NCBI GenBank assembly: GCA_944390795.1
Contig: CALXRI010000004.1
Coordinates: forward strand, 124,001 to 188,000
DNA length: 64,000 bases
DNA from: an uncultured Victivallales bacterium
Lineage (GTDB): Bacteria; Verrucomicrobiota; Lentisphaeria; Victivallales; UBA1829
Direction of reading: 5' to 3'
Below are positions 14,868-17,877 of the stretch, one piece after another. Numbering within the stretch: the stretch's first letter is position 1; the number at the start of each line of letters is the position of its first letter. Under the pieces are notes generated by a model. That model did no database searches, had not been told where the DNA came from, and saw only the letters and a list, made by a program, of their open reading frames with translations. Position numbers and translations under genes: made by a program.

Positions 14868-16450
14868 AAATATCCGTTGAAAATCTCACGCTTTCCGTCA
14901 AGGGGCTTCCCGCGACGATCGACCGGGAGCTGCATCCCCATATTGCCGCGCGGTGCGGCATCCGCGCTTCCGATGTTCTTTCCTACCGAATTGCAAAACG
15001 AAGCGTCGACGCGCGGCGCAAGCCCGACGTGAAACTGATTTACTCTCTCGTGGTCACGATCCGGGACGGCGCGGACGCGGCGTTTCCGCTTGTTCCCGCA
15101 CCGGAGGACATGGACAACGGCACCCCGCATTTCGAGTGCAGGAACGGGCTCATGCATCCGATTGTGATCGGTTCCGGTCCCGCCGGTCTCTTCTGCGCGC
15201 TGATTCTCGCGCAGGCCGGATGCCGTCCCGTTGTGCTGGAGCGTGGGAAGGACGTCGACCGCCGCCATGAGGACATCGACGGATTCCATGCGACACGCAG
15301 ACTCGACAGCGAGAGCAACTATCTCTTCGGGGAAGGGGGGGCGGGCACATGGTCCGACGGCAAGCTCTATACGCGCGTCCGGGACGGCCGTGTCGGTTAT
15401 GTTCTCGACACGTTCATCCGTTTCGGCGCGCCCCGGGAAATCGGATATTACAGTCATCCGCATCTCGGTTCGGACCGCCTTCCGCTGCTGGTTTCGGCGA
15501 TCCGCGACGAGATCATCGCGCTCGGCGGGGAGTTCCGCTGGAGCACGCGCGCGGAGACAATTTCCGTAAAAGACAATGTCTGCAGAGGCGTCGTGCTGGC
15601 GGACGGTGAAACCCTGGAAGCGCCCGCCGTTGTGTCCGCCTGCGGACACAGCGCGCGGAAATTCATTCTGAACCTGATGAAGGCCGGAGTGAAAACCTCC
15701 TTGAAGGGGTTCCAGATCGGGTGCAGGATCGAACATCCTCAGGAATACATCAATCTGCTCCGCTACGGCATGCGCAAGGCGCCGCCCGCGCTTGGAAGCG
15801 CGGAGTACGGATTTGTCTCGAAACCGGCGAAAAACGGGTCGGCGGGCGGCGCGACGACGTTCTGCATGTGCCCCGGCGGCGAGCTGATCCCCGCGACTTC
15901 CGACTGCGGACAGCTCAGCACCAACGGAATGAGCAACTCGGACCGCGACGGCTTCTTTGCGAACGCCGCGATTGTCACCGCGCAGGATATTTCGCGTTTT
16001 TCCGACGCCGCCGAAGCGTTCGCATTTCTGGATACGCTGGAGCGGAAAACGTTCGAGGCGGGCGGGGGCGACTACACCTGTCCGGCGCAGAACGCGGCGG
16101 ATTTTCTCCGCGGCACACTGGGCGAGCTTCCCGACAACGGTTCCTACGTGTTCGGACTCCGGAAATTCCGTGTGGATTCCCTGCTGCCGGAGGAGGCGAA
16201 ACACGCGATCCGTCGGGCGTTGAAGCACATCGGCGGCATGGCGCCCGGTTATATCGAGAACGGAGTCGTCGCCGGGTTGGAAACCCGTGTTTCCAGTCCG
16301 GTCCGGTTCGACCGTCATCCGGAGACACAGGAGACCTCCGTCACCAGTTTTTATGCGGTCGGCGAAGGCGCCGGCATGGCGGGTGGCATCACCTCTTCCG
16401 CTGTGGACGGCATCCGGATTGCGGAGGCGATGCTGAAAAAAACACTCTGA
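14864..16450 (+). CDS. NAD(P)/FAD-dependent dehydrogenase, COG2509 family
   Basis: 528 aa. The N-terminal ~95 residues form the helical lead-in common to COG2509 (YRIAKRSVDARRKPDVKLIY). The FAD motif GSGPAG follows (PIVIGSGPAGLFCALILA), then ERGKDVDRRHEDI and a GEGGAGTWSDGKLYTR loop typical of the family. Near the end AVGEGAGMAGGITSSAVDG closes the FAD fold. Starts at an ATGA overlap with the release-factor-like gene; an open frame runs further upstream, but coupling supports 14864. The reaction of this widespread family is unknown. Confidence 0.82.
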   Translation: MKISVENLTLSVKGLPATIDRELHPHIAARCGIRASDVLSYRIAKRSVDARRKPDVKLIYSLVVTIRDGADAAFPLVPAPEDMDNGTPHFECRNGLMHPIVIGSGPAGLFCALILAQAGCRPVVLERGKDVDRRHEDIDGFHATRRLDSESNYLFGEGGAGTWSDGKLYTRVRDGRVGYVLDTFIRFGAPREIGYYSHPHLGSDRLPLLVSAIRDEIIALGGEFRWSTRAETISVKDNVCRGVVLADGETLEAPAVVSACGHSARKFILNLMKAGVKTSLKGFQIGCRIEHPQEYINLLRYGMRKAPPALGSAEYGFVSKPAKNGSAGGATTFCMCPGGELIPATSDCGQLSTNGMSNSDRDGFFANAAIVTAQDISRFSDAAEAFAFLDTLERKTFEAGGGDYTCPAQNAADFLRGTLGELPDNGSYVFGLRKFRVDSLLPEEAKHAIRRALKHIGGMAPGYIENGVVAGLETRVSSPVRFDRHPETQETSVTSFYAVGEGAGMAGGITSSAVDGIRIAEAMLKKTL

Positions 16451-16506
16451 CGACTTCGCCGTCCTGTTCATCCTGTGACATTTTTGAAAAAAAAATGATT
16501 TCCGGT

Positions 16507-16535
16507 TTGACATTTTGCCGTCGGCGTGATAAGTT
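16507..16535 (+). promoter_or_regulatory. Strong promoter of the rplM leader / putative small RNA
   Basis: TTGACA (16507-16512), 17 bp, then TAAGTT (16530-16535). It lies 403 bp upstream of rplM, so the transcript must cross two terminator-like hairpins before the gene. The mraZ promoter candidate has the same -10 hexamer. Confidence 0.6.
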
Positions 16536-16536
16536 G

Positions 16537-16678
16537 CCGGAGCATTGGGATTGTGAGAGGTCCCGCTGCCGCCGTCATCCGGTTTTAGAGAGAGCCTGCT
16601 GGCGGTTGAGTCCGCTCCTGACTTTAAAAAGGAGATCAAAAAAGTGGGGGTGGAGGTCGAGAGGCCTTCACCTTTTTT
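16537..16678 (+). ncRNA. Structured leader or small RNA (~140 nt) upstream of rplM-rpsI
   Basis: The segment runs from the predicted start after the 16507-16535 promoter to a strong terminator. Pairings that can be drawn: GCCGGA (16536-16541) with TCCGGT (16578-16583), CCGCC with GGCGG, CTCCT with AGGAG (16616 to 16634 region), then the terminator. AAGGAG followed by GTG at 16644 could open a short frame. I cannot match it to a known riboswitch, 6S RNA or SRP RNA. It could be an attenuated r-protein leader or an independent small RNA. Confidence 0.45.
16649..16678 (+). terminator. Intrinsic terminator inside the rplM upstream region
   Basis: GGTGGAGGTC (16649-16658) pairs with GGCCTTCACC (16663-16672) as a 10-bp stem with two G-U pairs and a GAGA loop, then six T. 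It stands 232 bp before rplM on the same strand. Confidence 0.7.
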
Positions 16679-16777
16679 CTTTGGTCACTTCTGTGAAAAT
16701 GCGGGAAAATATTGGAAAAAAGTTCTGTTTTCCCTTTCCTCCGTCTTGAAAAAGGAAATCCTGATGTTACATTATAT

Positions 16778-16861
16778 GCTTCCGCGGCTGCATTTCCCGA
16801 TCGCGGCCCGGTGTCGGAGCCATGGCCTGGCAGCATGGGTTCCGGAAGCGAGTTTTTTTTT
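16778..16861 (+). promoter_or_regulatory. Second hairpin-plus-T9 element directly before rplM (attenuator candidate)
   Basis: GCTTCCG (16778-16784) pairs exactly with CGGAAGC (16843-16849) and is followed by GAG and nine T. Inside, GCTGC/GCAGC and CCGA/TCGG can pair. A weak promoter (TTGAAA 16746, CATTAT 16770) overlaps its 5' side. The nine-T run ends 48 bp before rplM and I see no promoter after it, so rplM transcripts should pass through it. Confidence 0.45.
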
Positions 16862-16909
16862 AGAGCAGGCTTGAATGCAAGTAATTTTTGGAAAGCGGAG
16901 AAGTAGAAA

Positions 16910-17338
16910 ATGAAGACGTATCTGGCAAAAGCCGGCGAAATCGAGCGCAAGTTCGTCCTTTTCGACGCGGCGGATGTTCCTCTGGGCCGTCTTGCAGTGA
17001 AAATCGCGAATTCCCTTCGCGGCAAAGACCGTCCCACCTATACGCCGCATGTTGACACCGGCTGTTTCGTGATTGTCATCAACGCGGAGAAAGTGCTCCT
17101 GACCGGCGCGAAGGAAGAAAAGAAGATGTATGAGTCCTTCTCGGGATACCGCAGCGGTCACAAGCTCAAAAAAGCCAGTGAGGTCCGCGCGAAGAAACCT
17201 GAGCTGATGATCCGCGAGGCTGTCTGGGGCATGCTTCCCAAAGGCCGTCTCGGCAGAGCGCAGTACGCGAAGCTGAAAGTTTATACGGGCGCGGAGCATC
17301 CGCATGCGGCGCAGAACCCCGAAGCGGTAAAACTTTGA
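16910..17338 (+). CDS. rplM: 50S ribosomal protein L13
   Basis: 142 aa, standard length. The segment VDTGCFVIVINAEKVLLTGAK is the L13 core motif, preceded by RGKDRPTYTPH and followed by YRSGHKLKKASE and the WGMLPKGRLGRAQYAKLKVY motif. L13 is an early assembly protein of the large subunit. AGCGGAG precedes the ATG. rpsI follows after 13 nt in the conserved rplM-rpsI order. The long structured region upstream suggests regulated transcription. Confidence 0.97.
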   Translation: MKTYLAKAGEIERKFVLFDAADVPLGRLAVKIANSLRGKDRPTYTPHVDTGCFVIVINAEKVLLTGAKEEKKMYESFSGYRSGHKLKKASEVRAKKPELMIREAVWGMLPKGRLGRAQYAKLKVYTGAEHPHAAQNPEAVKL

Positions 17339-17351
17339 TGGAGATTTTCGA

Positions 17352-17756
17352 ATGAACGCAGCAATGTCCAAATCTGAAATCGGCGCCACCGGACGCAGAA
17401 AAACAGCGAGCGCGAGAGTCCGCGTCTGCCAGGGGTCCGGCAAAATTAAAGTCAACGGCGAAAATTTCGACAAATATTTCAATGTGGAAGCCATCCGCGG
17501 CTTCATTCTTCAGCCCCTCACGCTGACCGGTCTCGGCAATACGCTTGACGTTTGCGCGACCATCACCGGCGGCGGAAAAACCGGTCAGGCTGGAGCTCTG
17601 CGTCACGGCATCGCGAGAGCGCTCATCAAATTTGACGAGTCTCTCCGTCCGGTTCTCAAGAACAGCGGAATGCTTACTCGCGACTCCAGAGAGAAAGAGC
17701 GCAAAAAGGCCGGTCAGCCCGGCGCCAGAAAGCGCTTCCAGTTCTCCAAGCGCTGA
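17352..17756 (+). CDS. rpsI: 30S ribosomal protein S9
   Basis: 134 aa. GRRKTASARVRV is the S9 N-terminal signature, QAGALRHGIARALIKFD the central one, and LTRDSREKERKKAGQPGARK with the FQFSKR end is the C-terminal tail that reaches the P-site tRNA. GGAG sits 9 nt before the ATG at 17352; an internal ATG at codon 5 is a possible alternative. Co-transcribed with rplM and closed by a strong terminator. Confidence 0.97.
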   Translation: MNAAMSKSEIGATGRRKTASARVRVCQGSGKIKVNGENFDKYFNVEAIRGFILQPLTLTGLGNTLDVCATITGGGKTGQAGALRHGIARALIKFDESLRPVLKNSGMLTRDSREKERKKAGQPGARKRFQFSKR

Positions 17757-17775
17757 TCGTTCCTGTGGCGATTCG

Positions 17776-17805
17776 GGGGAAAGAAGAAGTTCTTTCCCCT
17801 TTTTT
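17776..17805 (+). terminator. Intrinsic terminator of rplM-rpsI
   Basis: A perfect 10-bp stem (GGGGAAAGAA with TTCTTTCCCC) with loop GAAG, then six T. It starts 20 nt after the rpsI stop. Confidence 0.9.
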
Positions 17806-17877
17806 CTTTTTTGCGGTTTTGTTCAATCATATCAGAAAAATGCGGGTTGAGACGCCCGCCGGGAGTGGGGTAGTATC

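Follow-up and report, generated by a model that had tools for sequence, protein, structure and literature searches.

The DNA ahead of rplM in the window (the whole stretch analysed, 64,000 nucleotides of a contig from an uncultured Victivallales bacterium) raises the question of whether the rplM-rpsI message reads through two successive terminators or whether two transcription units lie side by side. The initial annotation described a promoter at 16507 with none after it and two terminator-like hairpins in series, the second closed by GCTTCCG/CGGAAGC and followed by a T9 run; it proposed either an attenuating leader or an independent small RNA of ca. 140 nt and a separate r-protein leader. The hairpins, the upstream promoter, the heptamers and the T9 run are all present in the sequence; the lack of a later promoter and the arrangement of terminators in series do not hold. 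From the comparison of relatives, we think it rather probable that the locus consists of two neighbouring but separate units, a small-RNA gene and then the rplM-rpsI operon with its leader (Table 1). The second gene of this operon we take to be rpsI from its sequence, the gene order and general knowledge of such operons.

Table 1. Features of the small-RNA and rplM-rpsI units, in positions of the window.
Feature	Position	Strand	Description
Small-RNA promoter	16507..16535	+	TTGACA 16507-16512, 17 nt, TAAGTT 16530-16535
Small RNA, ~138 nt	16542..16679	+	Both ends inferred; conserved 3' segment GGAGAUCAAAAAAGUGGGGGUG
Small-RNA intrinsic terminator	16646..16679	+	Hairpin 1 of the initial annotation; stem 16646-16675, T-rich tail
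rplM-rpsI promoter	16746..16773	+	TTGAAA, 16 nt, TACATT; TG precedes the -10
rplM-rpsI leader (5' UTR)	16780..16909	+	Start inferred from the promoter
Hairpin P1	16786..16808	+	Arms GGCTGC/GCGGCC around loop ATTTCCCGATC; CCCGATC 16796-16802 conserved
Hairpin P2	16815..16844	+	Arms CGGAGCCATG/CAT(g)GGTTCCG; loop GCCTGGCAG at 16825-16833
T9 run	16853..16861	+	Terminator tail of the initial annotation; probably a U-rich spacer
Shine-Dalgarno GGAG	16897..16900	+	9 nt upstream of the rplM ATG
rplM, ribosomal protein L13 (uL13)	16910..17338	+	ORF; homologues in 176/198 class genomes
rpsI, ribosomal protein S9 (uS9)	17352..17756	+	ORF; second operon gene
Intrinsic terminator after rpsI	17775..17810	+	Found by scan

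The comparison covers 198 genomes of the class, in 176 of which rplM was located. In all, 110 rplM upstream regions were collected, 30 in a first search plus 60 and 20 more (by region); one of them (L023) was too short and was left unused. The set of 20 served as a hold-out, being fetched only once the loop motif described below had been defined. We denote the family of the window f1 and the other families of the same order f2 to f8; the genus of the window is g1 (L001-L004, with L001 the window itself) and that of L005 and L006 is g8. Two covariance models were used: R1, built from an alignment (A1) of six copies of the small RNA, and R2, which describes the f1 leader. Covariation was scored by shuffling the left and right arms of a hairpin between leaders and comparing the fit of each arm to its own partner with the shuffled fit. 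This was preferred to counting pairs because some P1 stems, with a linker of 3 or 4 nt, are out of register in the first MAFFT alignment.

The promoter at 16507 was correctly seen, and TTGACA-17-TAGATT or a similar pattern is kept in the sister species L002-L004. Hairpin 1 likewise stands as described: both the scan and the MFE structure give a strong GC-containing stem with a U-run immediately after it, as in intrinsic terminators, and the hairpin is conserved in alignment A1 with compensatory differences between genera. In the four genomes of g1 (4/4) the small RNA lies on the rplM strand. In both g8 genomes the entire unit, terminator included, lies on the opposite strand and diverges from rplM, and the inverted copy of L006 is preceded by a clear TTGACT-type promoter. 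Since its ends are kept while its orientation is not, the small RNA is an independent gene with hairpin 1 as its terminator, and its separation from the rplM transcript is strongly supported by these sequence comparisons. This agrees with the second proposal of the initial annotation, for which the opposite-strand copies, the separate promoter and the covarying leader all speak. The R1 search returned a single copy in each of six genomes and none in the other 192; the 22-mer GGAGATCAAAAAAGTGGGGGTG likewise occurs at loci L001-L006 only. All six copies adjoin rplM, whichever their orientation. The gene is lineage-specific and has kept its place beside rplM, despite opposite orientations in the two genera. 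An Rfam scan of 16440-16930 gave no small-RNA family (6S, SRP RNA or others) above chance. Pairing of the small RNA with the rplM leader was considered and set aside, the duplex energies being equal to those of shuffled sequences or within ca. 1.8 sd of them.

A second promoter, which the initial annotation had held to be missing, was found by the scan between the two hairpins, with an extended TG element. The general pattern TTGNNN-N15-19-TANNNT occurs upstream of CCCGA in 30/30 f1 leaders against 3/58 control windows, and its -35 element starts at -49 to -51 from CCCGA in 27 of these 30. The other families present the same pattern in 43 of 53 leaders, compared with 8 of 103 controls. The rplM transcript should therefore start near 16780, past the small-RNA terminator, so that the rplM-rpsI mRNA need not cross hairpin 1, let alone read through both hairpins as had been supposed.

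Within the region of the second hairpin, the conserved helices are not GCTTCCG/CGGAAGC; they are two shorter hairpins, P1 and P2. P1 follows directly on the promoter, and in f1 it starts within a few nucleotides of the inferred transcription start. Most of the f1 loops read N4-CCCGAUC, while (N)YCCGAUCAUC is the form seen in much of f8. The CCCGAUC motif is not confined to f1: the order's other families have it in 52 of 60 leaders, and it recurs in 19 of the 20 hold-out leaders; beyond the order it is rare. The arms of P1 match their own partners far better than shuffled ones (mean 12.5 vs 7.2 ± 0.4; z = 12.1, n = 52 distinct leaders), near-identical leaders having been removed for this and the other arm-shuffling z values and the remaining kinship between leaders being uncorrected. 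The hold-out set gave z = 4.8 for 19 leaders, with 0/5000 shuffles as good, and five to six standard pair types are seen at every pair from the first to the fifth in the 58 leaders whose stem is well formed. L041 and the f4 leaders have a slight stem or none, and in L038-L041 (families f4 and f5) the motif is kept without a good stem. P2 carries the conserved, f1-specific loop YCUGGCRG, and its arms also covary (z = 9.1, n = 21 distinct f1 leaders). The initial annotation had suggested looking for covariation in the rplM upstream regions of relatives, and both hairpins display it.

The second element of the leader differs between families. Its counterpart in f8 is a hairpin with the loop GUGCGA(A), present in 24/43 leaders vs 0/43 of the control sequence, with arm matching of 16.0 against 8.8 ± 0.8 on shuffling; covarying stems around this loop, which stands in for the YCUGGCRG hairpin seen in f1, occur in L050, L054, L058, L061-L065, L068, L069 and others. 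Four leaders of f8 genera without GUGCGAA (L048, L049, L055 and L070) have AUGAUGCA in common downstream of P1, which may represent the second element in a third form. Since P2 varies between families and is missing in at least one f1 genome (L071), the leader as a whole has no single fixed fold. Single-sequence folding of the window leader is uninformative and gives no better energies than shuffles do. Sequestration of the Shine-Dalgarno sequence by the 5' end or by the P1 and P2 loops was rejected, within-genome pairing being no better than pairing across genomes. Searched against the 198 genomes, R2 gave 30 matches above 35 bits, each in a different genome and each immediately ahead of rplM. 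Of all other matches, the highest scored 28 bits; as R2 was built from most of the sequences that it then matches, its value lies in this lack of a second strong copy.

The leader combines a covarying 5' UTR structure with association to one r-protein operon, rplM-rpsI, two features of r-protein leaders in general. Near-invariant loops on drifting stems are, moreover, the usual pattern of r-leaders that bind proteins. Most likely, to judge by the sequences, the second unit carries an autogenous r-protein leader that is structurally distinct from the known uL13 leaders. We infer that uL13, the product of the first gene, is the likeliest ligand because it represses rplM-rpsI in E. coli and further, structurally unrelated leaders have been described or predicted for L13. 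It would presumably repress the operon, and would do so at the level of translation and not through termination. In such a scheme, rplM-rpsI would be transcribed from the promoter at 16746-16773 into a leader of ca. 130 nt that opens almost at P1 and continues with P2. Free uL13 in excess of the available 23S rRNA would bind this P1/P2 leader, and the bound leader would lower the translation of rplM-rpsI.

The initial annotation could not place the leader in a known r-protein leader class, and rightly so: within the window nothing in Rfam 15 reached gathering score, and 20 leader loci gave no match at E-values up to 0.5. Like the Firmicutes L13_leader (presumably RF00555), the leader precedes rplM and has uL13 as predicted ligand; it matches the covariance models neither of this family nor of the L13 leaders of Bacteroidia. 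In E. coli, uL13 autogenously represses rplM-rpsI through a structured 5' UTR of 157 nt, as PMC10931766 summarizes, citing Aseev 2016. The leader studied here resembles the one outlined in that account in operon, in having several hairpins and in length (ca. 130 nt), and differs in its GGAG Shine-Dalgarno sequence from the three-hairpin fold and unusual GGGU sequence given there for E. coli and the γ-proteobacteria. Neither the three hairpins nor GGGU was found in the window leader. Conversely, the E. coli MG1655 leader lacks the CCCGAUC and YCUGGCRG loops, and its longest antisense match to 23S rRNA is of 9 nt and lies elsewhere. Structurally distinct L13 leaders have been predicted in Firmicutes and, as a third type, in Bacteroidia (PMC7247131). 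The latter is closest in kind, being a lineage-restricted rplM-rpsI leader found by covariation (Eckert and Weinberg 2020, PMC7247131), and is described there as structurally unrelated to the leaders of E. coli and Firmicutes; the main text of that paper mentions neither Lentisphaerae nor Victivallales. For the phylum, our Rfam scans and literature search brought up no r-protein leader. The present leader would add another structurally distinct solution for rplM-rpsI control, built of two hairpins, with one loop retained throughout the order and the other swapped between families.

The P1 loop has a further property. In most genomes examined, the loop CCCGAUCAUC is exactly complementary, in antiparallel sense, to GAUGAUCGGG in 23S rRNA. 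This site is equivalent to 1128-1137 in E. coli and, by the usual helix limits, would lie between H42 and the H41 3' strand. Across leaders this complementarity spans 7-12 nt. The unpaired CCCGAUC(AUC) might therefore pair with 23S GAUGAUCGGGAC (ca. 1128-1139 in E. coli, H42/H41, near the uL13 site), and either free or nascent 23S rRNA would be sensed directly or the mRNA would be tethered to the assembling 50S subunit. The rplM message would then read nascent 23S rRNA at or near the assembly site of uL13, replacing or joining repression by uL13 or, in an alternative form of the same idea, would be delivered to it. We regard the pairing and these consequences together as unlikely. Occupancy by uL13 has been connected with H1 and H41 being stabilised (PMC9687910). 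Exact matches of 9-12 nt speak for the pairing; L045/L046 have them, as does most of f8, the larger family. L041, where the motif is kept without a good stem, matches over 11 nt (GUCCCGAUCAU), and L040 (GUCCCGAUUGUC) forms 12 pairs, two of them G-U, with its own 23S rRNA. G196, a genome of 3.2 Mb, contains the 10-mer at just three sites, namely the rplM leader and, in antisense, both 23S genes. The element is single-stranded with or without the stem. Against it, a 10-mer match within 2.9 kb has a chance of ca. 0.3% and several motifs were examined, the target varies too little to yield covariation, f1 conserves just 7-8 nt, and the match is disrupted in genus g9 (loop CCCGAAU vs 23S AUAAUCGGG). 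The complementarity may be a coincidence; as the loop is antisense to 23S rRNA near the uL13 region, the idea that an r-protein mRNA senses rRNA directly can be put to the test, and we offer it as a side proposal.

Mimicry of 23S rRNA on the same strand was also considered and rejected. None of the three full-length Victivallales 23S sequences checked contains CCCGAUC on its sense strand; CUGGCRG occurs in one of them (G186) and GUGCGAA in none. Both of the latter are present in E. coli 23S rRNA and were judged to be 7-mer coincidences. Besides its two full-length 23S genes, G186 has fragmented additional copies (C1:1223076-1224976 and 2697671-2698908). A 2.9-kb 'plasmid' of an E. coli assembly (L144, NZ_AP027616.1) is itself a 23S gene without the E. 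coli landmarks searched, and is probably an assembly artefact.

The autogenous uL13 leader is also to be weighed against attenuation, in which P2 and the T-run, aided by GCTTCCG/CGGAAGC, would form a conditional terminator under the control of L13 or S9. The complementary heptamers (16778-16784 and 16843-16849) and the T9 run had been correctly noted, a T7-T9 run follows P2 in three of the four g1 species, and T6 does so in most of g9. The two heptamers occur together in the window sequence only, their closing pair being absent from every relative tested; the T-run is lacking in L004, a sister species, and in the majority of genera other than g1 and g9; in L001 and L002 it is separated from the P2 stem by 8-11 nt. 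Together with a folding energy of hairpin 2 no better than that of shuffled sequence (z -0.27), this speaks against hairpin 2 as an intrinsic terminator or attenuator. The read-through attenuation of the initial annotation is unsupported: hairpin 1 precedes the rplM promoter, and hairpin 2 is conserved neither in its T-run nor in its closing helix. Attenuation in the rplM leader is unlikely, though less so for g1 and g9.

P1 and P2 might instead be conserved promoter-proximal hairpins that stabilise the 5' end without a specific regulator, as the closeness of P1 to the inferred start site in f1 would suit; we consider this quite improbable, given that the loops are near-invariant across the order while the stems vary freely, which is the signature of ligand-binding loops. 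That uS9 is the ligand in place of uL13 is very unlikely: its gene, rpsI, belongs to the same operon, but the regulator of rplM-rpsI in E. coli is uL13 according to the account in PMC10931766, and the 16S genes checked have no match to CCCGAUC. Downstream of rpsI, a clean terminator (17775-17810) closes the rplM-rpsI unit ahead of the next ORF (17878).
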